Source: Plumapathes pennacea
Taxonomy: Eukaryota; Cnidaria; Anthozoa; Antipatharia; Myriopathidae
NCBI GenBank assembly: GCA_964036295.1
Contig: OZ038464.1
Location: 1,492,501-1,556,500 of the forward strand
DNA length: 64,000 bases
Direction: 5' to 3'
Part shown: piece by piece, positions 10,401 through 56,691 of the stretch
Position numbering within the stretch: position 1 is the first letter of the stretch
Layout: every line of letters starts with the position of its first letter
Notes under the pieces: generated by a model
Told to the model about the DNA's origin: nothing
Database searches by the model: none
The model's input: the letters and a program-made list of their open reading frames with translations, nothing else
Program-made: the position numbers and the translations under genes

Positions 10401-13400
10401 AAACTGAACACACCTTGAGAAACGCAAAAATGCTGTAAAAATGCGTGGATTTTATCATACAGGAATGTATTTTGACACATCTATAAGTTGTCGAAACGTG
10501 TTTGTATAATTCTAATCTCACGTTTTCTGCTGCCAAAAAAAAAACACTCTGAAGGGCTTTCACAAATGTTTTATACACTTGTTGTGTAAAATATATCAGT
10601 CTCTTTACGTGCCCAAAACGTGACATGTCGGTTCGGCTCACCTTTAAATATGACTTCATTAGAAAATTGTATAAAGCTAAAAATTCAGAGATTCCACTAG
10701 GCCGGTGCATGTTGGTATTTACTGATAAGATACCGGACTGCCGGATAAAAATCTATTTTCTGTACCAATTCGTACGTTGTTTGTGAAATATAATACGACA
10801 AACGTTTGTAGAATAAATTCACTGCTTCATAGATATTTTAACTCTGAAATTTGCGACTTTCCCAAAATACAAGCAGGCTCACACAACGCTACCCTGGTCC
10901 CAGAGGTTTTGTGCTTTGCTAGTGATTTGCGCGCGAAAATGCTGAATACGTATGAACAAAAAAGGTCGCAAGTATAACTTACGCATCGCATGTAAAAGTT
11001 ACGCGTAGTATTTCGCTCAAGATAGTATGCGTAAGTCATTGTTTCGATGCTTACTGTAAGTGATACTTACGAACATTTCTGTTTCTACGCAAGTTTAGTG
11101 AATAACGGTCCCAGCTGTTTTTACGAACGTGATAACCCCTGAAACGAAACAATCAAATTGCCACGAAGCGACATTTTCGGAAACCAGTGATTTTAGCAAT
11201 TATGGAAACGCCCGCAATATTTGGCCCTAATTGGACTACTGTCTTCGCTATTTATATTAATCAAACAGAACTTCACTTGACGCATACTTCACGATTGCGT
11301 TTACGCGCGAAAAAGCACATCAACTTCTTTAAAGTGAGTTCAGAATAAAACACTGGTTCAAAAAACGTTTATGCATCTAACAAATAAGCTGTTGATTGCT
11401 GAAGAGAAATCCTGAATTTTCGTATGCCGCAAACACTCACATAAGTTATGGGCTACAATAAGTTGCAATATTGTTGAGACGTTAATGATAAATTTCGCGT
11501 TCGTTCCCTTCGCTTTAACTGAAATTGCGCTCAATCTGATCATTCCCCCCCCCCCCCTTTTTCAATGTTGATCCTGTAATACTGTGTAACGGATTTGGGG
11601 GCTCAAACAGCATCGCAATAGGGGGGAGGGGAGGGGAGAAGAAAAGCAAACAAGTCCAAAATCGAAAAACAGGGCTAAAATGATATAAGTGTCTCAACTG
11701 TTATTTGTAGGTTGAAACATTTTGTCTTTTAAGACTTGTTTTTGTGCAACACGCACACAAGGTAGCGGCAGTTCGGCTAGTTGTGGTTTTAGCGAATTTT
11801 ATAAAAGCTGCAATAAACCATTTGTAAGAAAGGTTAAATTTCTTTACTGCAGTCTTGGCAGTTTCACAGCTAAAATAAAGTTGTTCAACAATTTTTGATG
11901 TACGCAATGTGTTGCGTTTGGCGAAATTCCAGTTTTAAACTGCCTTTGCTTGTACCCTAAACATAAATAATTTAGTAAATAAATAAATGAAATTTTATAA
12001 TTTTTTAGTGTGGTCGTGTCTGTCAAATATCTTTCTAACTGAACAAATCCATGGTAAAACGCGTAAGTCGTGTTTGACTTTAGCTTCGAAACCTCGTCGT
12101 GATTTTCAAACACTTGCAAAGTAGAAAGCAAAGTCAAAAAGGTACAGAAAACAGAGAAGGGAAAAAAAGAACGCATATTCGCTTTCCAAATTTGAACGTG
12201 AACACTTTTGAACAGCATCGGCAAATTTGAGTATGACAGAATCTTATTGGGAAAAACTGCTTATTTTAGAAACCACGTGTAAAGTAAAATATCTTGAAAA
12301 TATAGTAATTATAACTCTTTGGATCAGTGGGCTTTCAGGTCTTAAAGATAAAATGAATCAAATATCTCAAAGTTACAACCTATGAAAAGCTCAGTGGTCC
12401 TGCATGAGTCAAAGAGACATTGCTTTGAACTTTGTGGCCGTGCAGGAATATTTTCTTTTGAAGTTTATAAAAGTACCTCAGTCACGCCTTGACTATTTAG
12501 ACAGCAACTACTCCACGTTTGTCGTAGGTTTGCCTTTTATGTAGATCCTTAACTTTTTTTTTTCTTTCAGCCAAGTCCACATCAGCAACTTTACAATGCT
12601 GCAGTTGATGGAGATCTTGAGGCCGTGAACAACGCACTCGAAGGAGGAGCTGACATAAACGTACACGTTGGTTTAGTAAGTACATGCAGTTTATTTGTCA
12701 GAAAACTTAAGGTTCGGATCAAAGTTTGATCCTGTTTAAGTTTGTTTAAAGCCAAAGAAACATTAAAAATAGTTTTCTATTTGCGAGTTACTTAGAGAGA
12801 CTAAAGAAGAGCAACAAAATGCCTTTTGGGAGGGGGCGGGGAAATCCGCGTCCGAGCGGACATTTTACCTGTCATTGTGCACTGATATGCAGTGTAGTAG
12901 TCAGGAGTATTACATGTGCAGAAAACGTTCATAAATCAGTTCTTCACAAGTTCGACTTCTCAGTGGATTTGGATTTGAAGGAGCAGTGTCATAACACACA
13001 TGCATGTTTGAAGGGCAAGTGTTTGGGCTGTCAAGCACGCTTTCGTAATGTGTGCTGATTTATTCTGGAAGGATAATTAACCAACGAGGCGCCGCGCCGA
13101 GTTGGTTATTTATCATTTCATATTCGGCATCTAGAAGTGTACTTTAGAAGGAATGGGCTAGAGTAATTTGTGATTCAGAAAGTCGGGCTTGCCGTACTGA
13201 TCTTAATTGACGTAAAAGAAAGACCGGAAGACGACTTAACTTCCGATTCAAAATAAAATGATCACAAGATTACTGCAAGTATGACAACTTTGCGAACGGG
13301 CTGAATGAATCGAGTGAAGAAAGCATTTTCATGGAAATTACCTGACACAAACACTCTCGGAAGAAGTTTACAAAAATATCTTCAGGCGATGAACCAAAAT

Positions 13401-15538
13401 TATTGAAACCGACAACTTACTGGCTGTGCTGAGAACTGAACCTGGAGATGCTAAAATATCAACAAGGAAAATTGACGAAGAAAACTATATCAGGGTCTAT
13501 ATACAGAGTCGGCGGTGGTGGAAAACTGTTTACATTGCGGAGGCGAACCCAAGAAAGCAATCGACCCAATGCCTGGTTGTATTGACTTGAGCGAAGGTGC
13601 TGTCTTGTCCCCTTTGCTGATGTGTAAAAATACTTGAGGCATGCAATTAATTCTTCTTTGCTCATTCTTCAAATTTTGTAAATGTCTCACCGAGGACTTG
13701 CAAGCCACTCTGAAAAGGTTGTGAAATCTGAAAAATCTTCCCCAGCAGTACTTCGTCGCTTATGCGTTCATTGACCATATTTGTCCACAGAAAGGTTATG
13801 ACCTATCAAATATTTCCTTCCGCGTGTGATTGGTGGAATTGTGACACGTGACCGAACAACGTCCGCTCAGCGAGTAAACCCCCGCCTAGCGAACTATTGC
13901 TCCTTATTGACAATATCGAACACAGTTCTATTTATTTTAGTAGAAATACGATAATCGCAGATACCCCCTCACTCTGCCATTGATGGGACTTTTACTTTGG
14001 TAACTCCCAACAAGAGTAGCCTTTGTTTTACCGAAATGTTGACTCGATTTTTTCTTCGAAGTCAAGTGCTACACGCAAAGGAAGGAGAAAAAGAATGGTG
14101 TGTGTTATACTTTTGCGTTGAAAAAAGAATCGATTGCGTGACGAAGTACGTATTTCCCACGGTCGGCACGTCAAATTAATTCATGCAGTCTGCCAAGCAC
14201 GTTCTCAAAATTTAATACTCAAAGTTTGAAGTTGGTCGGCCGTCGTAGTACGGGAAAAAAGGAACACTGATTTTCCAATTTTGAATTCATAGGCAGTACA
14301 ATTAAATAGGCTTCCTGTGCGATTTGTTTTTACTCTGGACTGCATGCACCAGATTCAGACATGCATATTTAATAGGCTCGAATTGTTTTGTATGTGAACC
14401 CACTCAAAACAGCAAGATTTTCCCCAGAATCAAAGCAAAACTTGAACAGTTTACTTCAAATTATACACGGGCTTCAGACCCAGTAATACTTCTAAGGGCT
14501 TGTGAACGATTCTCGCTGCAATCACCGCGTGTCAGATTACAGAAAAATAAGACATCTGACTAAATCATTCAAGACTCCAAGTTCCGATTGCTCTGAGCGA
14601 ATACGGTAGCCGAAACTGGCGACAGAAGCGTAGTAAAACAATACTTCGAGGGAAAATGATCAGCATACAGATTTTAATACATTCTTGAAGTGATCAAGTT
14701 ACAAGCTATACGGGATACAATATATTTGTCACGGTGATTGTTCGGTTTCCACTGACTAACCTTTGTTGCTTGTCCTTTCTAAATAAGTATCTGAGTTTAA
14801 CACAAAACGGCGTCTGAAGCTCCCGATTTGCTTTCAAGCGCTGTTCCCTTTGCGGAGTTGTCTGTGTTACCCGCTTCTGTTCATGTCGCTTTTGGTCGGC
14901 ATTCATGCGCTGTTGTCTTTGCGGAGTCTTCTCTTCGGCCCGCTTTTTCTCCTGAAGGTCCCGATTCGCTTTCAAGCGCTGTTCTTTTTGCGGAGTTGTC
15001 TGTGTTGTCCGCTTCTGTTCATGTCGCTTTTGGTCGGCATTCATGCGCTGTTGTCTTTGCGGAGTCTTCTCTTCGGTCCGCTTTTGCTCTTGAAGTGCCT
15101 GTTCGCTTCTCTTTTGAAGACGAGCTTCGCGAGACCGTTCTGTTTCAAGTTTTCTAGCTTTCAAATTCATTTTCGTGAACGCAGTTACGTACAATTGTTG
15201 CTTCGTTCAAATCTTTCTCAAAAACATGGCGGTGACGCTAGTCGATAATGATTACGTCATTGCCTTATTTGGACATTGCCTTAGGCACCTGGCCTAAAAA
15301 GGTCGCATCAAACAAACACACACACAAACAAATACACGAACATTAGATTTCGAGATGGCGACGCGCTTGGAGTCTTCAGATGAGCCGACTATGCTGCATT
15401 AGCGTCGTAAATATTTCCCTCACTTTGTTCGGGGAAAATCACAATAGACAATACGAGATGACTACCGAGTATGACATCAATTCATTGGTCGAAGAAGTCG
15501 TTTCAGAAAGTACTAAAACACAGCCTCTGCGCTATTAT

Positions 15539-15606
<68 letters not shown>

Positions 15607-18600: not shown

Positions 18601-21600
18601 GTTGCTTTCTATTTCATTACATAAAATTGTAATTATGCTAATATTCGCAGCGTTGTCAAGCACGCTCTCTTAATACGTACTGATATGTGTAGCATCAGCA
18701 GTAATACATGTGCAGCAAATGGTCATAAATGAGTTTTTCACACATTTGACTTCTCACTGGATTCGTCACGCTAGTTTGTTTTTTGAAAGGATGAGTGCAT
18801 TCCACTGCATCTGGCTTCACGTTACGGACATTTGGAGGTTGTGACAAAGCTAATCGATGCTGGAGCCGATGTGAACTCAAAGAGAAAGGTAGATAGTAGA
18901 CGTGTTAGTACGTTGAAGCTCTGAAAGTTTTGATCATTGTCTGTTGCTTCCTATTTCATTACATTAAGTTTTAATTGTGCTAATATTCGTAGCGTTGTGT
19001 AAGACAAGCAGTGTCATTACATGTACGTGCGTCTCTTTCTTTTTTCTATCAATCGCAGAGGTGGATGTTTGAAGGCCAAGTGTTAGGGCTGTCAAGCACG
19101 CTCTCTTAATACGTACTGATATGTGTAGCATCAGCAGTAATACATGTACAGCAAATGGTCATGAATTAGTTTTTCACACATTTGACTTCTCACTGCATTC
19201 ATCACGCTGGCTTGTTTTTTGAAAGAGTGAGTGCATTCCACTGCATCTGGCTTCACGTTACGGACATCTGGAGGTTGTGACAAAGTTAGTCGATGCTGGA
19301 GCTGATGTGAACTCAAAGAGAAAGGTAGATAGTAGACGTATTAGTACGTTGAAGCTCTGAAAGTTTTGATCATTGTTTGTTGCTTCCTATTTCATTACAT
19401 TAAGTTTTAATTGTGCTAATATTCGTAGCGTTGTGTAAGACAAGCAGTGTCATTACATGTACGTGCGTCTCTTTTTTTTCTATCAATCGCAGAGGTGGAT
19501 GTTTGAAGGCCAAGTGTTAGGGCTGTCAAGCACGCTCTCTTAATATGTACTGATATGTGTAGCTTGTAATAATACATGTGCAGCAAATGGTCATGAATGA
19601 GATTTTCACAGATTTGACTTCTCACTGCATTGGTCACGCTGGTTTGTTTTTTGAAAGGATGAGTGGATTCCACTTCATCTTGCTTCAGAGAACGGACATC
19701 TGGAGGTTGTGACAAAGTTAATCGATGCTGGAGCCGAGGTGAACTCCAAGGAAAAGGTGGATAGTGGACGTGTTAGCACGTTGAAATTCTAAAAGTTTTG
19801 ATCATTGTCTGTTGCTTTCTATTTCATTAGATAAAGTTGTATGTGTGCTAATTTTCGTAGCGTTGGTTATAAAAGCAGTGTCATTAGGTGCACATGCGTC
19901 TCTTTCTTTTATTTTTTATTAATCGCAGACGTGTACTGATGTGTGAAGGCCAAGTGTTCCGGCTATCGAGCACGCTTCCTTAATACGTACTGATATGTGT
20001 AGCATCAGCAGTAATACCTGTTCAGCAAATTGTCATGAATGAGTTCTTCACAGATTTGACTTCTCACTGCATTCGTCACGCTGGTTTGTTTTTTGAAAGA
20101 ATGAGCGCATTCCACTTCATCTGGCTTCAGAGAACGGACATCTGGAGGTTGTGACAAAGTTAATCGATGCTGGAGCCGTTGTGAACTCCAAGGAGAAGGT
20201 ACAGATAGTGGACGTGTTAGTACGTTGAAATTCTAAAAGTTTTGATCTTTTTCTGTTGCTTTCTATTTCATTAGATAAAGTTGTATGTGTGCTAATTTTC
20301 GTAGCGTTGGTTATAAAAGCAGTGTCATTAGGTGCACATGCGTCTCTTTCTTTCATTTTTTATTAATCGCAGACGTGTACTGATGTGTGAAGGCCAAGTG
20401 TTCCGGCTATCGAGCACGCTTCCTTAATACGTACTGATATGTGTAGCATCAGCAGTAATACATGTGCAGCAAATGGTCATGAATGAGTTATTTGACTTCT
20501 CACTGCATTCGTCACGCTGGTTTGTATTTTTGAAAGAATGAGCGCATTCCACTTCATCTGGCTTCAGAGAACGGACCTCTGGAGGTTGTGACAAAGTTAA
20601 TCGATGCTGGAGCGGACGTGAATTCAAAGGATGAGGTAGATAGTGGACGTGTTAGTACGTTGAAATTCTAAAAGCGTTGATCATTGTCTGTTGCTTTCTA
20701 TTTCATTGCATAAAGTTGTATAATTTTCGTAGCGTTGGTTAGAAAAGCAGTGTCATTAGATGCATATGCGTCTCTTTTTTTTCATTAATCGCAGACGTGT
20801 ATGTTTGAAGGCCAAGTGTTCGGGCTGTCAAGCACGCTTTCTTAATACGTACTGTACTGCTATGTGTAGCATCAGCAGTAATACATGTGCAGCAAATGGT
20901 CATGAATGAGTTCTTCACAGATTTGAGTTTTCACTGAATTTGTCACGCTGGTTTGTTTTTTGAAAGGATGAGTGGACTCCACTTCATCTGGCTTCTCGTT
21001 TCGGATATCTGGAGGTTGTGACAAAGTTAATCGATGCTGGGGCCGACGTGAACTCAAAGGATGAGGTAGATAGTGGACGTGTTAGTACGTTGAAATTCTA
21101 AAAGCGTTGATCATTGTCTGTTGCCTTCTATTTCATTACATAAAGTTGTATATGTGCTAATTTTCGTAGCGTTGGTTAAAAAAGCAGTGTCATTAGATGC
21201 ACATGCGTCTCTTTCTTTTTTTTTCATTAATCGCAGACGTGTATGTTTGAAGGCCAAGTGTTCGGGCTATCAAGCACGCTTCCTTAATACGTACTGTACT
21301 GCTATGTGTAGCATCGGCAGTAATACATGTTCAGCAAATGGTCAAGAATGAGTTCTTCACAGATTTGAGTTTTCACTGAATTTGCCACGCTGGTTTGTTT
21401 TTTGAAAGAATGAGTGGATTCCACTGCATCTGGCTTCATTCAACGGACATCTGGAGGTTGTGACAAAGTTAATCGATGCTGGAGCCGGTGTGAACTCCAA
21501 GGAAAAGGTAGATAGTGGACGTGTTAGTACGTTGAAATTCTAAAAGTTTTGATCATTTTCTGTTGCTTTCTATTTCATTACATAAAGTTGTATGTGTGCT

Positions 21601-24600
21601 AATTTTCGTAGCGTTGGTTAAAAAAGCAGTGTAATTAGATACACATGCGTCTCTTTTTTTTATTAATCGCAGACGTGTATGTATGAAGGCCAAGTGTTCG
21701 GGCTGTCAAGCACGCTTCCTTAATACGTACTGATATGTGTAGCATCAGCAGTAATACATGTGCAGCAAATGGTCATGAATGAGTTCTTCACACATCTGAC
21801 TTCTCATGGCCCCAAATGGCGAGTTCCAAGTCATCACAGATTTGTCGGACTACCGAGCCGATAATATTTTTGTACTTCAGATATGTTGATCTGAAAAAGT
21901 GTCTCCGAGTTTTAGCTCGCGAATCGAGAATTGATTTGCGAGGTATTGTAATCACTTTGCTTCCCTACTTCCCTCTGTTGTCAACAATGGATTTTCAAAT
22001 AAAGCAGTTGCGGTTTTCCAAATCTGGTCATGATCAAGGTCGCGTTGACAATATGTGTCGTGATAACGCAGTTCAAAAACAACAAGTCGTCGTAGTTGTT
22101 GCGAAATGAATTGCCAGTCGATCTCCTGCATTTCAGAACCATTATCACCGAGGTTTTGGTAAGTTCTCGGTTGTTAGAGAAGCGTAGGTCAGTTTAAAAA
22201 CAATCACCGTCGTGACAGCCTGGAGCGACGTCAGCTTGTCGAAATATTTCTATCGCTTGATTATATTTGCTTTGCTTCGCTTAATTTTTGCCAGCAATAA
22301 AAAGTACTGTACACAACTGGAAGAAGAAGAAATCCAAAATGAATTTGACCAAAACCGCAAGTAGATGTCAACAAGTGTACGAGATTTCACTTATTCAACT
22401 TGGAACTTGGCCAAAACAAGGAAGGCGCGTCTTCTTTAGGCACGTTTGGATGCCGCCCAGGCTGGAGTATCATGGCCCTCTGATAAATTTGTAGATGTCG
22501 AAGATAAGCTGTGCATGATATGAGCAATGAAGTCACAGATAGACTTTTTTCTTTGCGACTCCGGGCAATGAAGAATTGTAAATTCTCCCATTCGGGCGCC
22601 ACACTAAGTATTATAAATTTTCACTTTCTGCCTCCTTGTGTGAGGGTTTTCAAAACCGAGACTAAATTAAATACGCGGTTCAGCGAAAGTGGAGGCCCGC
22701 GGAACCTATACCTAAAATTGAGCAAATTTCACAATATGGCCTGTGAGCCAGTTCTATTATAAAATACGTACTCCCACAAAAAGTACTTTTTTACAAATTC
22801 TCGAGCTTACACCTGCCGTGCTGCTTTGATTGATATTTTGTTTGGTTTGGAAAATATTTAAAATAAAAGTCGGGCGACGTGTTTGATGGGGAATATTTTT
22901 ACGGCAAATGAAATAACTCGGGTTCTAAAACGAAAACAAAAAATCGGAGACACTTGTTAGTTAACATATCGGTTTATACTTATGCAAAATTTTAACCCAA
23001 TCCGTTAAAACCGCACGCTTGCACTGGAACTCCAAGAAAACGATATAAAACGCGTTTTTCCAGGTGCAGAAAAAATCGCGCCTGAAGATTTTCGGCGTCC
23101 CAACGGTGTTTGTTGACATAAGCAGCTGATCTGTCAGCCAGATGTCACTTTGATTCGCTTTGATGTAAAGCAGCGTCGTGTAATCTAGCCCAAGACTTTT
23201 TCCTTCAGTGGTATTTTCACTCAACAAAGTGATTTTCTTCATGGGTTCACCATGCCGAATCACACACACAATACTTGTGTTTTGCCAGATTTCACGTGAT
23301 ATGTCGGTGTTGCATGATACGCATAAGTTTACGAGTGATGACAGGTCGCGACAGGGGCCATTCTGATCGAAATTTTTCTTCGAGTCAATTTCTCGCAGAA
23401 TAAAGCAGAAAATCGAAAAAGGACAATGAATTTGGGCAGATATATTGAAAATAGATGACAAAACAGAAAAAAATATACTTTTGAAAAAACTTTGCACCGG
23501 AACGTGCGCTGATACCTTAAGGCTGGAACCAGAAATGGTGCAGTTTGCGAACGCAACAATTGTGTAAGTTCTGGTGACAGCAAAGAACGTAATTCATTGA
23601 ACAGAGTGTTCGATTTCCTTTTTTTTCTGGAAACAATAAGCACTTTAATATGCAGGCCCTAGCCTGGGGTATAACTTGGTATGATTTTTTATGACGAGTG
23701 GGACGTCGAGTAATGGTGCATTCCCTCCCTCCCCCGCGCTTTGATTTCTCCACGTTTGTCAGTTTGTCCTCCATCTCGTGTAGGATACTTGATATTATTA
23801 TGACTTGCATTTAACTACTATATTGATTTCTCTTTCGTTTTTGCTTTTTCTTTATTATTTTCTTTTAGTCGGGAAAGACTCCACTCGATTTGGCTGTACA
23901 CAATAAACAGTTTGAGATTGTGAACACACTCATGGATGCTGGAGCTGACCTGAACTCTAAGGTAAATATTATATTTAAAAATAGTTTTCTTGGATTCCAT
24001 GCTTGGCCATGGAGTTTAATTTTTTAAAAGCACAACTTATTTTACTTAGACTAATGTCCGTCATAATTAAATGCTAGTCCCTGTGAAACTAGTTTTACTC
24101 TGCGTTGGCGAAGAGATAAGACGTAGAATATGTCACCCTAAGGTTGATGTGGATGAGCGTGACGCCGTAAAGGCCGTTTAAGCGGACGGTTCGAGCGTTA
24201 GCTGTCTGAGGAAGGGCTAATGCTCCACACGTTAGCAACCTTTACGCTGTTGATCACATCCTTGTCAACATCAGGATGACAGATATTATGCGTTGCAATG
24301 TCATTACAGTGAACAGAAATGTAAATTGTGTGCCATGAGCATATTTCATATCGATTCGGGAAAAAATTTTCAGGGAGCGCGCTTTGATATAACGCATAAT
24401 AAATTTTGCACATAAGCAATCTGTTGTTCTGGGCTTCTAATTCTTCGAATACTTTGCTCGCAAATTTTAAATGTAGTTATGTGGTCACTTTCCATTGGGA
24501 GGAAAGGGGTTGGATTATCAGAATCTTCATTTACACAAAGAATTTTAACTGGGTCTTCTTTACACACACCAAACATTTTGGATTCAATGTTTATGCAGTT

Positions 24601-27600
24601 GTGTATCCTTGAACGTACACCCATGGTTATTACGATTAGTAAGTCATTGAGGTAAACAACAACAGTCTTCCTGGAGACTCCTCACTGCAAGTTTTTTTTG
24701 ACCACGAAACGAAGTAACGTGGCAAATGGTTTGAAGCCAGGAGGATCTGTCGTCTTCAGAAATACTGTTGGTAACTGACTTTGTGACCAGCTGCACTGAC
24801 TGACTTATTATTATTATTTCGTTCGGGCTTCATTCACTCCTTTCACCTACCCCACTTTTGACCAGTGCGACGTATTTAAATGTAAGTCTGTTAAGTTCAA
24901 ACTACCATATAGTGAAGTCAAAATTGGCGGTGCTACGTTTTCGATTTTAAAGGCCTTTTCTCAAAATAGGTCATCTATTAAAGAGGGAGGAGGATTACAT
25001 ATTAGCAAATTATGCTGTTTTTTACAACGATCTCACTGTACATCTCTGTTCGTCTAGGTATTTCAGAGTGAACCAGGTGATGGTGGTTTTGGTCCCATAT
25101 TTGGTTCAAATTCTAATCTTGATCCTGCACCCGAGGATGCAATGGGTAAACATGGAACTTATCTTAATTAAAAAACGATATAAACGACATGAGTTGTAGT
25201 AAAACATATTCATTTTGTGTTGGTGTGTATGGGGGAGTTGTTGATATGCTGGCCATTTTCTGTTGCAGTCCTTGTTTAAGTATAAGTGCGAGGCAGCTTT
25301 GAGTTTTAGCATGATAAATTTACTAGAAACGCGGTCAGAGATATGATGGAAATATTACCACACTCGCGCATGCATTGGGATTTCTATGAGAATGATGTTG
25401 GAGGGAGAAAAAGCTGCATACTTTTTGTGCCGTAAGATATATAGCCAATGCTTCTGATTCATTGGGCAGTTAATAACACTGGGGTTGTAGCTAGAAATTA
25501 TGCGAGAAAACAAGCATGTAATTTATTGTGAATAGGCTACTTCCACACCCATCAACAGTAGCTTATAATTTTGGTTGGTACATAATTACATTGCAAGTTA
25601 GGCCCTATTTATTTGAGAAAACGTTGACCCAGGGGGCCCGAGTCACCCTTCTCCCTAAGCCAAGTTTACCAAGCATTTATAAGGAAAAATGTTGTCCCAG
25701 GTAAACCGGGTCAAAGCTGGCCCTATCGATTTGGAGACTGGAAAGAATTTTTAAAACATCAATTTATAAAGCCCACGGATGGCAGACCGAAGAAACTTGT
25801 GTTTTCGATTAAGCCAAAATTTTTGTTTTTGGACCGGAGCGGAACAGACTTCCGTATACTCGAGTGGTCCCTCTCTTCCCCCCCCCCCCCCTCCCCCCAT
25901 GCCAAAGTGTTCACATGAAAAAAAGTTGACCCACTACCCAGGGTCACCCTGTTCCCCGAGACAAGTTGTGATTTGTCGTGTAAATGCTCGCTTCGATTTA
26001 TAAAAAAAATGTATGAGTAGTTGGCGTGCCCGGGTGACTCGGGGAGGAGGGTGACTCGGGTCCCCGGGCCGACTTTTTCTTATATATAGATTTCTCTGCT
26101 CTGATCGTCAAATAGCCTGCCAAAACATCTCAGGCGCATAAGTGTATTTTCGTGCTTCGTAAAATTAAGTCTATATCTAACACAACAGTATCATGCCAAA
26201 CTTATTTGTACTGAGATTGGTGTCACTGCCTGCAAAACATTTGTATGTGTGCGTAATTCTTGTATTTTCGGTGTGAAATCAAGCTGACAACACCAACCTG
26301 GAAAGTTACTGTAGTAAACACCAAAGAAAATGGATTAAACGAAGGTTATTATTTTATACTAGCTGGGTTTTACGATAGTTCTGTTGTTTCCAGGTCAGGT
26401 TAAGTGATAAAAGTTTCAGAGTAACACTAATGTTGATAAATGACGTGATTGTTTGCATTACACAGTTCCCATTGAAATTATGGCCCGTGGTCCGGACGCT
26501 CTCGCAGCCTATCGGAAAGCACTGAAAGAAGGCCAAGCGTATGACCGCCGCGTACCAGTAATGATTGTTGGTCAGGACAGAGCTGGTAAGACCAGCTTGA
26601 AAAAATCCCTGAAAGGGGAAAGGTTTGACCCAAACGAATGTAGTACCGTGGGGATTGAAGTTGATCCAACACTGTGCCATTTGACGACTGAAGTTTGGAG
26701 TGTGGAGTCCCCTGGCGTGACGATAGCAACAGAAGAAAAGTTCGAACATCTTACTGCAAAGCTTTTGGGGCAAATGCTTATAGAGAATCAGTATCACCCT
26801 GTCCCACACAGGGAAGAACGACATCGTGGCGAATCAGTAGCTCAGAAAACCACGTTTACTACATCTAGTGCTGATGAATGCGCCGAGGCGTCTGAGAGCT
26901 CAGACTCTGCAGCATGCATCCCAGAGCAACGTTCCAATTTTCTAGAACCCAGTTCTCAGGAAAACCCCACTTTGCCACAAAGGAGTCCAGAGCAACTATC
27001 CAATTTTCCAGAACGCAGTTCTGAGGAAATCCCCACTTTGCCACAAAGGAATCCAGAGAAACTTTCCACGTCGCTGGAAAGTAATCCAGAAGCAGTTCGC
27101 AATATCCCAGAGGAAATAATACAGATATTAGCGCATGCTGAGGAAACTGACTTGGAAAGTGATGATGACGTTGAACTTGTTCTGTGGGACTTTGCTGGTC
27201 AATCAGTGTTTTACACCACCCATGTACTGTTCCTGTCAAGAATAGCCATCTATATCTTGACTTATGACCTTAGCAAAGAACTTCGTGATAAGGCAGTACC
27301 TCTTGTAAAGCGTGACATGTATGAACGGGTGCTAACAGACGACAAATGTGAAACCACTAATATGGATTACATCCATTATTGGCTTTCATCAATTCACGCG
27401 TTTAGCTCTCATTCAAAAACCCTAAGTAATGAATCAGAGCATCTCCCGCCTAAGATTCCACCAGTTTTCCTTGTGGGCACCCACGCTGACAAGTGCAGCA
27501 GACCAAGGGAAGTTGCCATGGAAGTTATGTCTGACTTGAAAGGCAAGTCTTATGAGGAGCACGTGGTGGGTAAAGTCTTCACAGTGAACAACACGCGATC

Positions 27601-30600
27601 TGGAAGAGAAGAAGGTGAAGATGAGGGGATCAAGAAACTGCGGCCTGAAGTACTTGAAACAGCACGGGAGTTGCCTCATGTGAAGGAACTATTTCCTGTT
27701 AGGTGAGGTTTCGTGTTTCTTGCCTTGTTTGCTTTTATTGTCACTGTTGCTGTTATAGCAGGACTCAATTTTTCTGGTGACGGTTATTTTAACGCGGGGC
27801 GCACTATTTAAAGGAGACACCATACGGGAAGGTTTTTTGATATTTTATTATGTTGTATTTAAAATATATACAAAATGGCGAACAACAGATTCAGCGCGGC
27901 AGCCTATTTTCAAATCGCGCGCTACTCTCTTTAGTCGCCTCGGGTTTTGACCAACTGAAGGATACTTCTTTTTTGTGATGGCACTGTAATGGACTTTAAG
28001 CAGGACATTTCTTGCTTCAGTCTCTTGAGGTCGGCAATTTATTGTTTGTGCAGGTATACCTCAAAACAAAATAAATTGTAGTTAGAAGATGAAAATCGTT
28101 TTACGGTTCAGTCAGTGTAATATTGACTCAATTCGGTCTCAACCGAGCAACGAAATTTGCGATCGAGGAGTTCGACAAGATTTGATTTCTGATTATTGTC
28201 GTGTGCTCTTGCTGGGGAAATCACAATGGCTGTTTGAACCATTGTTCCGTAAAACGAGCATTTGCTATATAAATAGCACATGTGTGATTGATAAATCACT
28301 ATATACTGTAGAAGAGATGGACACTTTGGTTTTGACCTTGAAGATATTAAATGACAGAAATACAGAAGGATAAGTGAATTGTAAGATCGAGTAAAATAGA
28401 TTATAGCATGAGTATTAAAAGATCAGTATGCTGTAATATTGCCTTAGGCCTGTTTCAAACTCCGAACTTCACATGCGTCGAATACAATGTAAATTAGTTG
28501 AAACAAAATATATCTTGCTCAGTTGCATTGTATTTGACGCATGTGAAGTTCGACGTTTAAAATAGGCTTAATTAAGAGCGAGCGAGTAGGTCGCCGTCAA
28601 TACGTCTAGTGCAAATCATTTCTCATAAAATATTTTTTCGTTTTTATGCAAAACAAGATAATTTTCATAATAGATGTTTCTCATTAGGTCTCGTAAGTGG
28701 CCTATTTGCACACTAGCAGATAATAATTTACTGGATATTATTAAATAGGTCGTCAATGACCAGACACTCAGGAGTTTGTCTGCAATGATAGGAAAGGATC
28801 ATTGTGATTTTATTTAAAGGTGGTTGCGCCTTGAGAAATCTTTGAAGAGCTTGAAAGTTGGTGGCACAAGCTTCACAACCCTCGACATTGTCAGGAAGAA
28901 AGCACAGGTGGTTTTTGACGTAAGAGAAGAGAACGACTTCAGAACAGTGGTAAACTTCCTACATGACCGCCACGCAGTACTGCATTTCAGTAAACCGCCA
29001 GAACTAGACCGACTCGTGGTGCTGGATCACCAGTGGTTGATCGATGTTTTCAAGAAGGTGATCACTGTCCAGCCGTTGGAATGCCAAGAGAGAGCATTCA
29101 GAAAACATTGGGAGGAATTGGAAAGTGAAGGCATCTTGCGTCTTGAGTTGGCGAAGCATGTGTGGAAAGACCTCGTCCCATTAACAGAGACAGTCACTAG
29201 CCTTCTGCTTATGTTAGAGAAGTTCAGCCTGACTTGTCGCTGGATCCAACCAGATGGATCAAAGGTACTATCCGTTCTCCCCTTGTTAATCGCTTTACGT
29301 GCGATTTAACAACGGTTTACGTGCACACAACTTCTAATACACTCACACGCACAAGGACACGAGCATGGTGCATGTCTTCTCACTACATTGTTTCTTTGAT
29401 TTACAATGATGCTACTTATACAGTGGAATCCCGATTTTTCAGATTTTTGGAGGTTCGAAAAATCGGGATTCCACTGTACACCTAGTGTGGTCAGCATCAA
29501 AACAGAAAGGGTCACAATTCTCATGTTTTCAGGTATATTTGGTGCCTTCCATGCTGATGTCCGAAGCAGACTCTAAGATTCTGGATTTGATATCATCAGC
29601 CGAGATTCCAGCTCTCATTGTGCGGTTTGCAAATCAGTACCTCCCTGTTGGACTGTTTCCACGTCTGGTTACGCGCTGTGTAAATTGGTGTTCAGAGAAA
29701 TGGTCTGTCAGGAAGCAGCCCAAGTTATGTAGGAACTACGCGCGCTTCTTCTTGGGCACTGATGGAGCTTACCAGGTGATCCTGGCCAAAGGACTGAATG
29801 TGATCTCTGTCAGCGTGATCAGAGGAGAGAAAGTGGTGGAGAAGTGTGATGCTGATCGCTTGGCACACGAAAGGTAATCCATCAATGTCCTTGGCAGAAG
29901 TTAATTGTAATGGAATTAATCTCAATGATCATAAGCGGTTGTATATGTCACTAAATACCATTTGTTTTCCTCAGTCAGTCTAACCGTAATGTGTTTAGTA
30001 GATATTGAAATTTTCGCCGGAGTCTATTTTCGCGAATTTCACGGATTTTCTGACGATTCGCGAAAATAAACTCCGCGAAAAAAAAAAAATCCGCGAAAAT
30101 TTACACTATTTATTTGTTAAATTCGTCCCGCACTATATGTTACGTGTTTTCCAGGCCAACCACCTACTGTATACTGTAGCTTTGAGTTGTAATGTACGAC
30201 TTGTGACATTTTGTAAATTAGAGATAATCAGCAAGATGTGAGAAAAAGTGAAACCCTTATTGCTATGTACCAGTGCCGAACGTGAAATACCAGATAGAAA
30301 CTTTCCTGAGATTCGCGAAAATTTGTCCCCAACAGTAAAATCTGAAATCCAAATTCGCGAAAATTTCTTCCCGCGAAATGCAAAATATCAGCAATCCGGG
30401 AAATTAAACTCCCGCGAAAATTTCATGACACACGGTATTCCAGTCTCTCACAACATGAACAGATGTAAAGAAACTTTGGAACACTTTATGGCTTTTTTCC
30501 TCCTATAATGTGTTCAGTAATTGTTTTACTGTAACACTTGTGTGCTCCCTCATTTGAATGTGTCATTTTCAACTAAGAGACTCTTTTTCGATGTCTTTTT

Positions 30601-33600
30601 TTTTTCTTTTAATTAAGTTGTTCGGATTATGCGAGCCATTTACAACTACTCGCCAGTTCAAATGTTGTTCATAACAGTAATTTAAACTTAAAGGGGCTCG
30701 GTCATGAGTTACGCATGCGTCTTTTTAAAATAACACAGCGCGCATATTTAATGAGCTTCAACGGCGAATTCAATTTGTTTTGTATCTGAACCTCAAAACA
30801 GGTTAAAATTCCCCCAAAATCAAAGCAAAAACTGACGGGTTTACTTCAAAGTACATGTACCTTACATCGTTAGCTTCCGCGGCGCTCAAATCTAGCCTTA
30901 CTTTGAACAGAAAAAAGAAGTCGTCTGACTAAGCGATTAAGTTCCGACGCTACTGAGAGGAATGCACCAGCTGAAACTGTCGACAGAAAATTATTCATTG
31001 GGTTTGTGTAAAGTTCACTTGCCCATTGCGTAACAAGAACAGCAGGCTTCTATATTATTTTTGTTCAAGTGATACATTCAGTAATAAACACAAGAATATG
31101 GCTAGCATAACTTGCCGTCTCCAATGATTTCAAAACAAACAGGAGTCCTCATGCAACTTGCGAAAATTATCATTTCCATTGCAGCGCCCGTGACGAGCGA
31201 AACATTTCGGCAATGTCATTTAGAAACGGTGAAATTTGCCTTTGGCGACTGCTCAATTTCCACCGACTGAGCTTTGCTTTTCCTTCCTGATAATGTATCT
31301 CAGTTTTAAGACAAACGACGTGGCCTTATTTGTACTTTGTTGTGCTCGAGCTTCGCTTCGCTTCATCCGCCATTAATTAAACTCGAAAACGTTAGCCTCA
31401 CGTTTTCAAGTTTTGTGAACTGAGCTACCGCGCGTCACAGCTCATGACCGAGCCCCTTTAATGCCTCAGAAAGGAGTAAGATACCTAATGTTTTCCTAAC
31501 CTGTATAACTAAACCCTGTTCTGCTTTTGGTCAGGAGTTTGGCAACTTTCTGCCGTGCAGTGCTTGCTTTTGTAAAGTCTGCGTTACAAGAAATGCAAGA
31601 GGATCATCTTTGGATGAAGCTGATGCGTTACACCCTCTGTTTCACGTGTCTCGTTTGTTCAAAGGGCGGGGTCCAAGTCAGTGTCTGTCGTCTACACCGT
31701 GCTACGGGCTGTACGCGGGATCAGTGTCTTCATTACGTCACTGAAGATGAGCTTGTCCATGGCCCAGAAATTCTGGTTTGTTGTGAGTCAGACGATGCCA
31801 GTGAAACAACCATAATCAGAAAGCAGTTCACTCCTTGGTTTGAAGCGTTAGACGGCAAGGTTTGTGACACTTGTTTTTGAGTAACTAAGTTTTATAGTTC
31901 AAGTAATCTGTTCTTACTGAAAGTTTACTGCATTGCTCTCAGTGATAAGTGGCAAACTATACAGAATTATTTCGAACGAGGTTTAACCAGGCCCCCAGTT
32001 GTTCAAAGAGTGGATAGCGTTATCCACCGGATAAGTCCTTATTCAGCTGAGAAAATTAAGATTAAAGGTCAACACTTATAGCGATTTATCCGGTGAATAG
32101 CGCTATTCACTCTTTGAACAACCGGGCCCAGTACAATCGTTGTTAAACCTGCAAAAAATATAGGAGCAGCAATGTTGATCAGTACAATTCTTTGGTTTAG
32201 AGCTGACTTGGGTAGAGATCTATCGGAGCTGTTCTAAATGCTAGCGTGAACGTTTTTAAAACAATTTTGAACAAAATTTTCCCTGCAACAAGCAACACTT
32301 TGAGTCATTTTAGCTATTCCTATTCTCACCACGTCTCACCACTGCTTTGCCGAATTAGCTCGGCACGGCAGTGCGCGACGTTTGAAACGGACCTTAGGCC
32401 CAGTGTGCAGGTGCCGAACTTTTTATGAGCTGAACTCAATGCAAATAAACTCATAAAAAGATAACGTGGAATATGTGAATTATGCCATGACTTCAACGTA
32501 CAGTTTATCGCTCGTTACATCGTAGGTATACATACCATTCTGGCAAATGAGATCTTAGATTGCAGATTTTTTTCTCTCTCTCTCTCTGCTCAACAGCTCC
32601 TACTTCTGTCTACAAGGCTAACAAAACCTAGTATGTCTGTGTGTAACCTGACAGTCTGTGCATTTTGTACGTTGTTACCTGTGTATTTTTTACTTTAGAC
32701 ATTAATGAGTTAACGCCACTGTAACATTCCCATCATCACTTGCGCAGGTTAAAGTGGAAGCGGAGGGGGAGAAACTGGATGATGACTTGAGCCCACAGTC
32801 AGGTATTGATCCCCTGGCCTTCTATTTATTCCTGTGGTACCTTTGGAAACGCACGTCGAATTAGAATAAGTCAGCTCGGTCACAATAGGGAGAAAGAGAG
32901 GGAGGATAAGAGCAGGATAGCCTGCATTGTTTTCAGGTAAAATATTTACGGGAGCCGGACTGGGGTGAGGCAAAAGCGGCGGTTGGGAAAGGGGAGGCGG
33001 AGGTTTCGAGGAAAGTTTTGTAAAATTTTGAAAAAATATATAATGACTGTGGGAAAAATGTGATCCTGTCGTATGCCCCACTTGTACAAATGAGGTCATA
33101 ACGACTTTACATTTTGTTTGTTTCCCTTTTCTGGGGAAAAAATGGCACTTGAAAATAATTATGGCGCCATCTTGGATATTGTCATTGATCCTCAGCAAAG
33201 CCCCTCATGCGCCATAACCGATAAATTAGCCGGATCTTATAGAATTTACACCAGGCTATGTGATGATTGTGAAAGATTATCAATCTATATCAATGCAGCA
33301 AAAAGTCTGGGGAGTGGCTCCATCCACACACCATGGTGGAGGTATTACTTTGCTTGTATTTACATTTTACCATTTCTGCGCCGACTCTACGGTAATGATT
33401 TTGTAGGGGCAGCCAACAATGTACCAACCGTAGCCGAACTCAACCATTTGTCATGGGAGATCACTTGCTGTTGGGGATCTTTGGGGAGACAACTAGGCGT
33501 GGGGGAAGGAGCTCTACAGAACATTCTGAACAACAATGTACAATGGCCTGCTCCCAGACAAAAGGCGTTTGAAGTCCTGAGGGCATGGCGTGATAAGGGC

Positions 33601-49900: not shown

Positions 49901-52900
49901 TTAGATAGCAGCTACTCCAAATGTGTCGTTGGTTTGCCTTTTATGTAGATCTTTAACTTTTTTTCTCTCAGCCAAGTCCACATCAGCAACTTTACAATGC
50001 TGCAGCTGATGGAGATCTTGAGGCCGTGAACAACGCACTCGAAGGAGGAGCTGACATAAACGTACACGTTGGTTTAGTAAGTACATGTAGTTTATTTGTC
50101 AGAAAACGGGAGCTTCGGATAGAAGTTTGATCCTGTTTAAGTTTGTTTAAAGAAAAGTTTAAAATAGTTCAAAGAAACATTAAAAATAGTTTTCTATTTG
50201 CGAGGCATCTTAGTAACTTAGAGAGACTACAAAAGAACAACAAAATGCCTTTGGGGAGGGGGCGGGGGAAATCCGCGTCCGGGCGGACATTTTACCTGTC
50301 AATGTGCACTGATATGCAGTGTAGTAATCAGCAGTATTACATGTGCAGAAAACGTTCATAAATCAGTTCTTCACAGGTTCGACTCCTCAGTGGATTTGAA
50401 TTTGAAGGACCAGTGTTATAGCACAGGTGCATGTTTGAAGGGCAAGTGTTAGGGCTGTCAAGCACGCTCTCTTAATGTGTGCTGATATGTGTAGTAATTA
50501 ACAATTATTCTACGAGGGCGTGCCGAATATGGAATGATAATTAACCGAAAAGGCGCCACGCCAAGTGTACTCCAGAAGGAATAGGCTAGAGTAATTTGTG
50601 ATTCAGTACTGATTTTAATTGACGTAAAAAAAAAATAAAAAAAAACCGGAAGATGACTTAACTTCCGCTTCAAAATAAAATGATCATATGATTACTGCAA
50701 CTATGACAACGTCTTTGCGAATGGGCTGAATGAATCGAGTAAAGAAAGCATTTTCATGGAAATTACATGGCACAAACACTCGGAAGAAGTTTACAAAATA
50801 TCTTAAGGTGATGTACCAGAATTACTAAAAACTTGTGAAATCTGAAAAATCTTCCTCAGCAGTACTTCGTCGCTTATACGTTCAATGACCGTATTTGTCC
50901 ACAGAAAGGTTATGAGCTGTTATGACCCATCAAATATTTCCTTTCGCGCGTGTTTAGTGGAATTGTGACACGTGACCGAATGACGTCCGCTCAGCGAGTA
51001 AACCCCCGCCTGGCGAACAATTACTCCTTATTGAAGTCGTTTTAGGAAGTATCAAAAAACTTCACAGCCCCCGCGCCGTCATTTAATAATAATTATCGAT
51101 TAGCATCTCCGCCAGTGTTTTTACTGACATTCGGAAGAAAAAAAATATTTGAACGAAGCAAAAATTGTACGTAACTGCGTTCATGAAAATGAATTTGAAA
51201 ACTAGAAAACTTGAAACAGAACGGTCTCTCGAAGCTCATCTTCAAAAGAAAAGGGAACAGGCACTGGCGAGGCGAAATTGTGAAGAACAGCGCTTGAAAG
51301 CAAATGGGGAGCTTCAGATAACGTTTGCGTTGAGCTCAGATACTTATTCAGAAAGGACAAGCAACAAAGGTTAGTCAGTGGAAATCGAACAATCACCGTG
51401 ACAAATATATTCTACCCGTATCTTGTAACTCGATCACTTCAAGAATGTATTAGAATCTGTATGCTGGTCATTTTTCCTCGAAGTATTGTTTTAATACGCT
51501 TCTGTCGGTATCTACGATTATCGTATTTCTAGTAAATTATCTTGGCTGCCCTTACGTGCATTTTCTCAAGGTCTTGGAATATGGTCTTATCACTCAGGCA
51601 GGATCACTCCCGGTTGAAATAGAATGTTACGAGAGCAATGGTTGGAAGGAGTTCCAGAGATTTTAGCAGATTGAACTTGTTAGCATATAACTTGATTAAG
51701 TCCTGGAGGTGCGTTGTCCACTTCAATTTATTGTCAGTGCTGATGCCAAGGCATCTTGTTAATTTGACAAATTCGATGGCATTGTTGTTAATCTTTAATT
51801 TTTGAATGTGGGCCGACAAGTCTCTTTCCTGATAATAGCATAGCTTCGCATTTTGTAGCATGTAGTGTCATGGCGTGTTTTACACACCATTTATTTATGA
51901 GGGCTAGGGCATTATTAGATGCTGCGATAGCATAGTCGACGTTGTCGGCTATGCAGTATAGGGTGGTGTCGTCTGAGAACATCTCAATGCTTGCTTCCTC
52001 CAGGGAGGAGATGGTGTCAGGGAGGTCGTTGTTGTACGGGCTGAACAAAATTGGGCCCGAGACTGATCCCTGTGGTACTCCACAGGTGACGCTGGTGCTC
52101 TGGGATTTGCCCTCACCTACAGTGGCAAACTGTGTCCGATCGGATAGGTTGTCGGTGCCCCATGTTTCCATATCATTGCAACGTTTGCGGCAAGATGGCC
52201 TGTGAGACAGAGTCAAAGGCCTTTCAGAAATCGATGAATACTGCGAACACAACGTGGCGATTGTCCAGAGCAGAACACCACTGTTCGGTCTTATATACTA
52301 GTTGTAATTCAGTTGAGTGGCCCTCCTTGTATGCCCACTGATGTGGGCTAAAAAGATTGTGTCCGTGCCATGTGGTCGGTGATCTTGTCAGAAATGCATC
52401 TTTCCATTATTTTGTTTGGGATGCTTAGCAACGAGAGAGGCCGGTAGTTTTCTCTCTCCGTGATATATCCCTTTTTGTGATTTGTATTAAGGCGAGTGCG
52501 TTTCCAAGTAGAGGGAACGGTCACTTCAGCCAAGCTTTATTGAGTTTGTCACGCATGGTGACGGGAGGATAGGAACAGGACTGAAGTCCCAATTGACACC
52601 CATCTCCCTTGAGTAAAAGCACCGAGGGTGGTCACTGCCAGAGATTTGTTTACGTCTTCAGTGGCTCTTTTACGTCCCCCTGGAATCAGGTGTAGAAGTA
52701 TAGAGAGACGGGACCGCCATTTTTACGTAGTCATCCGAGCCACGTGAGGATCTTACCATTTGCTGATCGAAACAAGGGCAGCATCTTCTCCTCAGTTATT
52801 TTAAGCCCTGAGTGCGGGTCCGGCCGGGATTCGAACCCCCGACCTCCCGCACAAAAGACCGGCACTCAACCAACTGAGCCAACCGGCCGGCGGTTGCCGA

Positions 52901-54390
52901 GTGGGAATTCACCTTTCAGAACCACTCGGCTTTGGTTGTAGGCTTCAGTTAATGAGGGTACAATGGAAGGACCTGCTAATTTTGGGTGTCTAGGGGAGAT
53001 TCCGTCTGGTCCAGTGGCTTTATGGGGATTTAGGGCTTCCAAGTGTTTTTGTACCGCCTCTTGAGTGGTTGTCATGGTCAATAGTTGGTGTCACTTTGGT
53101 GTACAGTGACTGGGGAGGGTTAGATGGCACAGGGAGTCGGGCTGCCTGTCTTATGTCTATAGTGGCAAAATACAGGTTTAGCAGTTCAGCCTTTTCCGTG
53201 TCACTGGTGGCCAGAGTCCCGTCGTCTCTTATTGTTGGTGGCGGGGGATCGCTGCTAGAATATGCTGCTTTCTTTAATAGTTTCCAGAAGCTCTTTGTGT
53301 CTCGCGCTTTCTCAAATTGGGCTGCGAAGTATTTCTCTTTGGCATTTTGTAGCACAGATTCATCTTTTGTTTGAGTTTACCAGTTAGCCATGGGAGCGAA
53401 TGGCTTCTGACCTTAGTCCAGCGGGAAGGGGCGTTGTCGACACATATTTAGGAAAAGAGTTTTGTCCACGCTAAATATAAATCGCCTACGTTATCAAAAG
53501 CCTTAGACTGACCATGGAACGTTGTAACTCAATTTTGCGCTGCAAGAGGAAATATTTGAAGGATAGTAAAGATAATAAACTACTTGTACTACTTGTATAA
53601 CTACTATGTGAACTCCAAGGAAAAGGTAGATAGTGGACGTGTTAGTACGTTGAAGCTCTGAAAGTTTTGATCATTGTCTGTTGCTTTCTATTTTATTACA
53701 TAAAGTTGTAATTGTGCTAATATTCGCAGCGTTGGTTAATAGGAGCAGTGTCGTTAGATGCACATGCGTTTCTTTTTTTTTTTCTATGAATCGCAGACGT
53801 TCGTGTTTGAAGGCCGAGTGTTAGGGCTGTCAAGCATGCTCTCTTAATACGTAGAGATATGTGTAGCATTAGCAGTCATACATGTGCAGCAAATGGTCAT
53901 GAATGAGTTTCTCCCAGATTTGACTTCTCACTGCATTCGTCACGGTGTTTTTTTTTTTTTTTTTTTGAAAGAATGAATGGTTTCCACTGCATCTGGCTTC
54001 ACAGAACGGACATCTGGAGGTTGTGACTAAGTTAATCGATGCTGGAGCCGAGGTGAACTCCAAGGAAAAGGTAGATAGTGGACGTGTTAGTACGTTGAAG
54101 CTCTGAAAGTTTTGATCATTGTCTGTTGCTTTCTATTTTATTACATAAAGTTGTAATTGTGCTAATATTCGCAGCGTTGGTTAAAGGAGCAGTGTCGTTA
54201 GATGCTTATGCGTTTCTTTCTTTTTTTCTATCATTCGCAGACGTTCATGTGTGAAGGCCAAGTGTTAGTGCTGTCAAGCATGCTCTCTTAATACGTAGAG
54301 ATATGTGTATCATTAGCAGTCATACATGTGCAGCAAATGGTCATGAATAAGTTTTTTCCGGACTTGACTTCTCACTGCGTTCGTCACGGT

Positions 54391-54424
<34 letters not shown>

Positions 54425-55766
54425 AAAGGATGAATGGATTCCACTGCATGTGGCTTCACAGAAGGGACATCTGGAGGTTGTGACTAAGTTAATCGATGCT
54501 GGAGCCGAGGTGAACTCCAAGGCAAAGGTAGATAGTGGACGTGTTAGTATGTTGAAGCCCTGAAAGTTTTGATCATTGTTTGTTGTTTTCTCTTTCATTA
54601 GATAAAGTTGTAATTGTGCTAATATTCGCAGCGTTGGTTAAAGGAACAGTGTCGTTAGATGCTTATACGTTTCTTTTTTTTTTTCTATTAATCGCAGACG
54701 TTCATGTGTGAAGGCCAAGTGTTAGTGCTGTCAAGCATGCTCTCTTAATACGTAGAGATATGTGTATCATTAGCAGTCATACATGTGCAGCAAATGGTCA
54801 TGAATAAGTTTTTTCCGGACTGGACTTCTCACTGCATTCGTCACGGTGTTTTGTTTTTGTTTTTGTTTTTGTTTTTGTTTTTGGTTTTTTTGAAAGGATG
54901 AATGGATTCCACTGCATGTGGCTTCACAGAAGGGACATCTGGAGGTTGTGACTAAGTTAATCGATGCTGGAGCCGAGGTGAACTCCAAGGGAAAGGTAGA
55001 TAGTGGACGTGTTAGTATGTTGAAGCCCTGAAAGTTTTGATCATTGTTTGTTGTTTTCTCTTTCATTAGATAAAGTTGTAATGTTGCTAATATTCGCAGC
55101 GTTGGTTAAAGGAGCAGTGTCATTAGATGCACATGCGTTTTTTTTTTTTTTTTTGTATCAATCGCAGACGTTCATGTGTGAAGGCCAAGTGTTAGTGCTG
55201 TCAAGCATGCTCTCTTAATACGTAGAGATATGTGTATCATTAGCAGTCATACATGTGCAGCAAATGGTCATGAATAAGTTTTTTCCGGACTGGACTTCTC
55301 ACTGCATTCGTCACGGTGTTTTGTTTTTGTTTTTTGTTTTTTTTTTTTTAAGGATGAATGGATTCCACTGCATCTGGCTTCACAGAACGGACATCTGGAG
55401 GTTGTGACTAAGTTAATCGATGCTGGAGCCGAGGTGAACTCCAAGAAAAAGGTAGATAGTGGACGTGTTAGTACGTTGAAGCTCTGAAAATTTTGATCAT
55501 TGTCTGTTGCTTTCTATTTTATTACATAAAGTTGTAATTGTGCTAATATTCGCAGCGTTGGTTAAAGGAGCAGTGTCGTTAGATGCACATGCGTTTCTTT
55601 CTTTTTTTCTATCAATCGCAGACGTTCATGTATGAAGGCCAAGTGTTAGTGCTGTCAAGCATGCTCTCTTAATACGTAATGTGTATCATTAGCAGTCATA
55701 CATGTGCAGCAAATGGTCATGAATAAGTTTTTTCCGGACTGGACTTCTCACTGCATTCGTCACGGT

Positions 55767-55799
<33 letters not shown>

Positions 55800-56659
55800 A
55801 AAGAATGAATGGATTCCACTGCATCTGGCTTCACAGAACGGACATCTGGAGGTTGTGACTAAGTTAATCGATGCTGGAGCCGAGGTGAACTCCAAGGAAA
55901 AGGTAGATAGTGGACGTGTTAGTACGTTGAAGCTCTGAAAGTTTTGATCATTGTCTGTTGCTTTCTATTTTATTACATAAAGTTGTAATTGTGCTAATAT
56001 TCGCAGCGTTGGTTAAAGGAGCAGTGTCGTTAGATGCTTATGCGTTTCTTTTTTTTTCTATTAATCGCAGACGTTCATGTTTGAAGGCCAAGTGTTAGTG
56101 CTGTCAAGCATGCTCTCTTAATACGTAGAGATATGTGTATCATTAGCAGTCATACATGTGCAGCAAATGGTCATGAATAAGTTTTTTCCGGACTGGACTT
56201 CTCACTTCATTCGTCACGGTGTTTTTTTTTTTTTTGAAAGGATGAATGGATTCCACTGCATGTGGCTTCACAGAACGGACATCTGGAGGTTGTGAATAAG
56301 TTAATCGATGCTGGAGCCGAGGTGAACTCCAAGGCAAAGGTAGATAGTGGACGTGTTAGTACGTTGAAGCTCTGAAAGTTTTGATCATTGTCTGTTGCTT
56401 TCTATTTTATTACATAAAGTTGTAATTGTGCTAATATTCGCAGCGTTGGTTAAAGGAGCAGTGTCGTTAGATGCATATGCGTTTCTTTCTTTTTTTCTAT
56501 CAATCGCAGACGTTCATGTGTGAAGGCCAAGTGTTAGTGCTGTCAAGCATGCTCTCTTAATACGTAGAGATATGTGTATCATCAGCAGTCATACATGTGC
56601 AGCAAATGGTCACGAATAAGTTTTTTCCGCACTTGACTTCTCACTGCATTCGTCACGGT

Positions 56660-56691
<32 letters not shown>

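Follow-up and report, generated by a model that had tools for sequence, protein, structure and literature searches.

An in-frame expandable one-exon-one-repeat ankyrin array in a putative Roco gene cluster of Plumapathes pennacea

How can the length of an ankyrin solenoid change by whole repeats without loss of the reading frame? This question is raised by a stretch of 64,000 nucleotides from the antipatharian Plumapathes pennacea (assembly GCA_964036295.1; 290 Mb, 24 contigs), called the window below, which covers positions 1492501-1556500 of contig OZ038464.1 (C3 in contig coordinates; all other coordinates are those of the window). It contains array B, a tandem series of exon-intron units with one ankyrin repeat per exon, which belongs to the second of four tandem paralogous genes (A to D); a separate array on the same contig is named Z. 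According to our analysis, the ankyrin domain of this Roco-type gene – a gene with a Roc GTPase followed by a COR domain – is very probably a one-exon-one-repeat array that changes by unequal exchange between units and varies at the presumed binding face.

The initial annotation, made by a model from the letters alone, had placed seven 99-bp phase-0 exons of one repeat each at 18790-21507, in units of about 440 bp. Inspection of the sequence agrees on both points: all seven exons lie at these positions, are open, are flanked by AG/GT and have a codon boundary at both ends, and each encodes one 33-residue ankyrin repeat, with a start-to-start spacing of 430-442 bp. Tandem Repeats Finder (TRF), run independently, also detects the array (period 442, 7.2 copies, score 4584), which is therefore not a product of chance. 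The ankyrin region extends past the seven exons to an N-capping exon on the 5' side, which all four paralogues keep open and bounded by AG/GT, and a terminal ankyrin exon on the 3' side. The peptide obtained by joining these exons, which is our own construct and not a sequenced transcript, matches Pfam Ank with 228.5 bits (cut-off 21.1; 8 stretches, E 3e-70) and Ank_2 with E 3.3e-91; the closest solved structures are ankyrin-1/2 and designed ankyrins. One-repeat exons of 99 bp also occur in vertebrate ankyrin genes.

A change of length is supported by the comparison of the paralogues. The four neighbouring genes lie on one strand, have the same order of parts and share their flanking exons, yet they contain 28 (A), 7 (B), 7 (C) and 5 (D) units; array A (C3:1449677-1463374) lies outside the window. 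Array A shows duplications of four-unit blocks, each compared over 1.8 kb: identity is 99.4% between units 15-18 and units 24-27, and 99.2% between units 19-22 and units 23-26. Unit-pair divergences were computed over the exon with 135 bp of preceding and 200 bp of following sequence; within these limits the pairs A18/A27 and A22/A26 are identical, and over whole units they have four and nine differences, respectively. When units are labelled by peptide type, array A falls into irregular runs, each some four to five units long. Both the counts and these multi-unit duplications bear out the earlier proposal that whole repeats are gained or lost in frame. Detection of a unit required 20 or more open codons; the regular spacing leaves no room for missed units, and truncated edge pieces were excluded from the counts. 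An insertion of about 1.5 kb lies in the intron after unit 5 of array A, 75 bp after the exon. The stretch after A5 was omitted from the variable-site tests and shortened for the unit tree and the block identities; it was retained in the exon-plus-flank divergences and in the comparison that gave pN/pS and the intron-flank differences, where it inflates the distances of A5 and slightly those of array A.

The units of array B had been described as near-identical and recently duplicated, with introns as alike as exons. The first term is too strong: exon pairs have a mean identity of 87.2% (82.8-93.9) and full introns one of 90.5% (85.8-97.0). The introns are, if anything, more alike than the exons (60 of 300 columns variable against 28 of 99; Fisher p=0.09). 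Recent duplication fits the 28-unit array A and one pair in array B; pairwise alignment, which had been suggested for dating, gives a difference of 3.5% for B1/B2, the sole close pair, whereas B3-B7 differ from one another by 6.1-9.5% and from B1-B2 by 11.3-13.0%. Divergence increases with distance in the array: neighbouring units (lag 1) differ by 7.0% on average and the two end units, the single pair at lag 6, by 12.3%. On these values array B looks older, with B1/B2 alone fairly recent. Units of A and B are 13-14% different in their intron flanks, and the flank blocks of the two genes are 76-93% identical, the top values including coding exons; from this comparison, array B would have evolved separately since about the time at which the genes diverged. 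The seven B units all group together in the unit tree (support 100/96), A28 and D5, the last units of their arrays, pair as sisters (100/100), and gene labels are clustered far beyond shuffles. A conserved array edge with a turned-over interior is the pattern that unequal exchange is expected to leave. Array Z (C3:2520941-2537163, minus strand) consists of 19 units, each about 800 bp long; at one of its ends units of two types alternate, with pairs that differ by 0.6% and 1.4%. The Z unit partly matches a dispersed repeat found on many contigs, and about 22 kb past the array there is a Death domain. An insertion of about 1.7 kb is present about 71 bp after one of the Z exons, an intron position almost equal to that of the insertion in array A.

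Throughout this turnover the exons appear to be maintained. In arrays A-D and Z, every one of the 66 complete units has an open exon of 33 codons, with AG/GT flanks in 65 of the 66. No exon indel was seen, against 7.7 distinct ones expected from intron gap rates (P=0.0004), an expectation that omits gaps in the last 45 alignment columns (poly-T) and the insertion-bearing introns. Downstream of the array, the proportions of synonymous (pS) and replacement (pN) differences were compared by Fisher tests in seven of 35 paralogue comparisons; pS exceeds pN in six of them (p 0.0002-0.023: four for Roc, one for COR-A, one for the next frame), and the excess is not significant for Death between B and C (0.20). 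Array B has the properties of a real, functional-looking ankyrin exon array that could expand in frame.

The mechanism that we propose follows from this anatomy. Exons and introns of adjoining units are homologous in register, so that unequal crossing-over or related repair between units could add or remove blocks of one to several repeats. Since all ankyrin exons, both end exons included, are of phase 0, the products would remain in frame. Selection would keep the exons open and most of the repeat framework fixed, with presumed binding-face residues left to vary, and the outcome would be sister-gene solenoids that differ in length and surface. Unequal exchange, which we infer from the pattern, would account for the counts, the blocks and the tree, and whole-repeat length change over evolutionary time is therefore well supported. 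Polymorphism between individuals may continue.

The protein to which this solenoid would belong is suggested by the open frames downstream of the array (Table 1). Roc and COR-A follow each other in successive open frames on one strand, the order that defines Roco proteins such as DAPK1 and LRRK2, and a Death frame follows. Order, strand and parallel copies in the paralogues suggest that the ankyrin, Roc, COR-A and Death frames are joined in one transcript; gene B is thus probably a Roco-type gene with ankyrin repeats, Roc GTPase, COR and probably Death, and its product a putative intracellular, ligand-binding sensor. DAPK1-type proteins combine a kinase, ankyrin repeats, Roc-COR and Death. All of these parts but the kinase, which was not searched for, are present at gene B; what sets the locus apart from known Roco genes is the long and nearly uniform ankyrin exon array. 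NLR receptors are characterized by a NACHT or NB-ARC nucleotide-binding domain; NACHT is not among the Pfam matches of the six open frames scanned, which comprise Roc/Ras, COR-A, Death and RVT_1 only. The end of the frame that follows COR-A reads as a likely splice donor in all four paralogues. Within the Roc frame, a 66-bp in-frame tandem repeat (22 residues) is found at 26921-27068; since gene D lacks one of the copies present in A, B and C, in-frame length change affects another part of the protein as well.

Table 1. Features of gene B and of paralogue C in the window (window coordinates).
Feature	Position	Strand	Evidence or remark
Gene B N-capping ankyrin exon (half repeat), 105 bp	12571..12675	+	phase 0 at both ends
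Gene B exon-intron tandem array	18654..21806	+	TRF, period ~440 bp, 7.2 copies
Ankyrin exon B1, 99 bp	18790..18888	+	read from sequence
Ankyrin exon B2, 99 bp	19226..19324	+	read from sequence
Ankyrin exon B3, 99 bp	19658..19756	+	read from sequence
Ankyrin exon B4, 99 bp	20100..20198	+	read from sequence
Ankyrin exon B5, 99 bp	20537..20635	+	read from sequence
Ankyrin exon B6, 99 bp	20967..21065	+	read from sequence
Ankyrin exon B7, 99 bp	21409..21507	+	read from sequence
Gene B terminal ankyrin exon, 93 bp	23869..23961	+	phase 0
Roc GTPase open frame	26444..27706	+	Pfam Roc E 3.6e-15; frame limits, not exon limits
COR-A open frame	28818..29309	+	Pfam COR-A E 7.8e-12; frame limits
Open frame after COR-A	29410..29877	+	no Pfam match; conserved in four paralogues
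Death open frame	33094..33711	+	Pfam Death E 1.3e-7; frame limits; putatively same gene
Paralogue C N-capping ankyrin exon	49972..50076	+	
Paralogue C seven 99-bp ankyrin exons	53972..56794	+	starts 53972, 54429, 54897, 55353, 55804, 56241, 56696
Paralogue C terminal ankyrin exon, 93 bp	62410..62502	+	

Several observations weigh against a functional array that changes by unequal exchange. Exon use and the transcript are predicted from genomic DNA, and unit numbers come from a single assembly and could be misassembled. Genes A and D have no recognisable Death exon in the DNA searched, and unit A15 has AA in place of the acceptor AG. Constraint is uneven: pN/pS of COR reaches 1.30 between A and D and 1.10 between C and D, the terminal ankyrin exon gives 0.83-2.50 or has no synonymous change, with several pairs at or above 1, and synonymous changes between paralogues are entirely lacking in the N-capping exon. 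Apart from B1/B2, array B is not young. In the unit tree the D units do not form one group, and label changes number four for A, two for C and three for D. Finally, gene conversion could yield a similar grouping without any change in length.

The variation between repeats was compared with the presumed binding face. As putative contact codons we took the seven randomised positions of designed ankyrin repeat proteins (DARPins) as we presume them to be. In array B residues vary at 10 of 33 positions, and five of the seven presumed contact positions are among them (P=0.016); the overlap gives P=0.35 for A, 0.15 for C, 0.09 for D, 0.13 for A-D together and 0.02 for Z. Distinct repeat peptides number 14 of 28 in A, 7 of 7 in B and in C, 4 of 5 in D and 15 of 19 in Z. 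The between-unit variation would thus sit where the binding face is expected; diversifying selection is not established.

One account of this variation, to which we give somewhat less than an even chance, is neutral turnover: unequal exchange would let unit number drift, length would hardly matter, no repertoire would exist, and selection would only remove broken repeats. The open and indel-free exons agree with it. So does the comparison with introns, in which contact codons show no significant excess of replacement sites in four arrays out of five (A 0.45, C 0.43, D 0.09, Z 0.08). Synonymous differences in array B are high too (pS 0.194, pN/pS 0.56), above the intron divergence of 0.08-0.09, which argues against a purely selective reading. 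Against neutral turnover, contact codons are denser in replacements than the framework in B (p=0.005), Z (0.0009), D (0.03) and A-D together (0.002), with no significant difference in A (0.11) and C (0.28); after correction for five arrays the excess survives in B and Z.

A selected recognition repertoire, in which recombination of units would give a putative death or immune sensor alleles with different binding faces and numbers of repeats, seems unlikely to us. Evidence for it comes from array B, where all repeats are distinct, the contact positions are preferentially variable, as described above, and replacements at contact codons are denser than variable sites in introns (p=0.006). A within-array pN/pS of 1.35 in A and the lack of any synonymous difference in C point the same way, as do the Roc-COR and Death neighbours; in D the ratio is 0.81.

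We regard it as distinctly doubtful that the symmetric exons serve mainly as a splicing device, producing isoforms of varied length by unit skipping as in NLRP3. Every ankyrin exon is of phase 0 and unit A15 would have to be skipped or spliced otherwise, but duplication alone explains phase 0 throughout. A precedent does exist: as outlined in PMC6642158, the exons of the leucine-rich repeats (LRR) of human NLRP3 are short, preserve the frame, match solenoid modules and can be spliced in or out whole. The present locus resembles this arrangement in its frame-preserving module exons in a putative intracellular sensor; it differs in that ankyrin replaces LRR and Roco replaces NLR, exon and intron together form tandem DNA, and paralogues differ in length. 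That the cluster is a set of pseudogenes or owes its unit numbers to the assembly is very improbable, for against the single assembly, the missing Death exons of A and D, the lost splice site of A15 and the partly relaxed gene D stand 66 of 66 open, indel-free exons, the constraint on Roc, COR-A and the next frame in six of seven tested comparisons, and the many differences that tell units within arrays apart.

The principle of such arrays is known. The kringle IV type 2 (KIV-2) repeat of LPA is described in PMC11462820 as a coding variable number tandem repeat (VNTR) of 5.6 kb per unit, with 1-40 units per allele; there, too, the tandem unit is exon plus intron, carries one module and changes number in frame, but the protein is extracellular and polymorphism in populations is established, whereas here only paralogues are compared. 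Domain-repeat proteins have expanded by internal tandem duplication in blocks of several domains (PMC1553488). The present repeats are likewise gained as multi-domain blocks; unlike those proteins, the units keep recognisable homologous introns and four adjoining genes differ in count. DARPins combine a fixed framework with varied surface positions between caps, as summarised in PMC8683736 and PMC8229355; array B has the same layout, although DARPins are engineered. For sea anemones, PMC5094078 reports Roc/COR immune candidates with LRR and TIR, or with kinase, Death and TIR, and its outline of these candidates names no ankyrin array. Among titles and abstract beginnings of open-licence literature we found no earlier variable-number one-repeat ankyrin exons or ankyrin-Roc-COR-Death arrays, a limited scope from which we do not claim absence from print. 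With LPA KIV-2 and the NLRP3 exons as precedents, what would be less usual is the occurrence in an ankyrin-Roco gene and the range of lengths found in a single cluster. A cluster with 28, 7, 7 and 5 repeat exons offers a clean natural system for the evolution of solenoid length and surface by unit recombination, and unit number is easy to genotype with long reads. Should it vary in populations, the locus would parallel LPA KIV-2, with ankyrin as the module and a putative death or immune sensor as the protein. Improbable in our view is the furthest-reaching possibility, namely Roco-Death sensors with a recombination-driven ankyrin VNTR, whose unit number and mix differ between individuals, perhaps even between cells, and whose binding-face residues are under diversifying selection – an intracellular, germline-shuffled recognition repertoire in an invertebrate-like animal.

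Related sequences are found elsewhere in the genome. In a DNA search for Roc-COR, in which 40 of 775 candidates were scored, at least eight further Roc-COR places were detected on C3 and contigs C12 and C2; 10 kb of 5' flank was examined for three of them. At C3:1155774-1160582 this flank contains five ankyrin matches about 1.5 kb apart, i.e. three standard 99-bp exons and two with altered 3' parts, for which the next GT would give 102 and 105 bp with the frame kept. The altered exons are the two units nearest Roc in an array of at least five 1.5-kb units on the minus strand (C3:1163757-1169908), which was examined in part and lies outside the 66-unit set. The flank of C3:6638639-6641612 has one weak ankyrin match in 10 kb, and that of C3:1626609-1629003 has none in 10 kb.

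As to the Death exon, no match at E<=0.01 was found for gene D up to C3:1626500, nor for gene A beyond a remnant of the last 14 residues of the Death frame. This remnant lies about 440 bp beyond a lone terminal ankyrin exon (both within C3:1483690-1484263), and the fragment resembles what a deletion between genes A and B would leave.

Smaller features of the window concern the DNA around the arrays. A short piece of array intron occurs a few hundred bases 3' of the N-capping exons, at 13001-13059 and 50418-50494, and the unit intron may therefore derive from there. Between the N-capping exon of gene B and its array, at 15542-16398, lie about 143 copies of the hexamer ATAATG, a microsatellite that is almost perfect. 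Slightly upstream of array C, a reverse transcriptase fragment (RVT_1) is present at 51788-52297 on the minus strand. Mutually similar 69-bp tandem repeats are located between the genes at 3642-3865, 14814-15095 and 42385-42608, the middle one being open on the minus strand.
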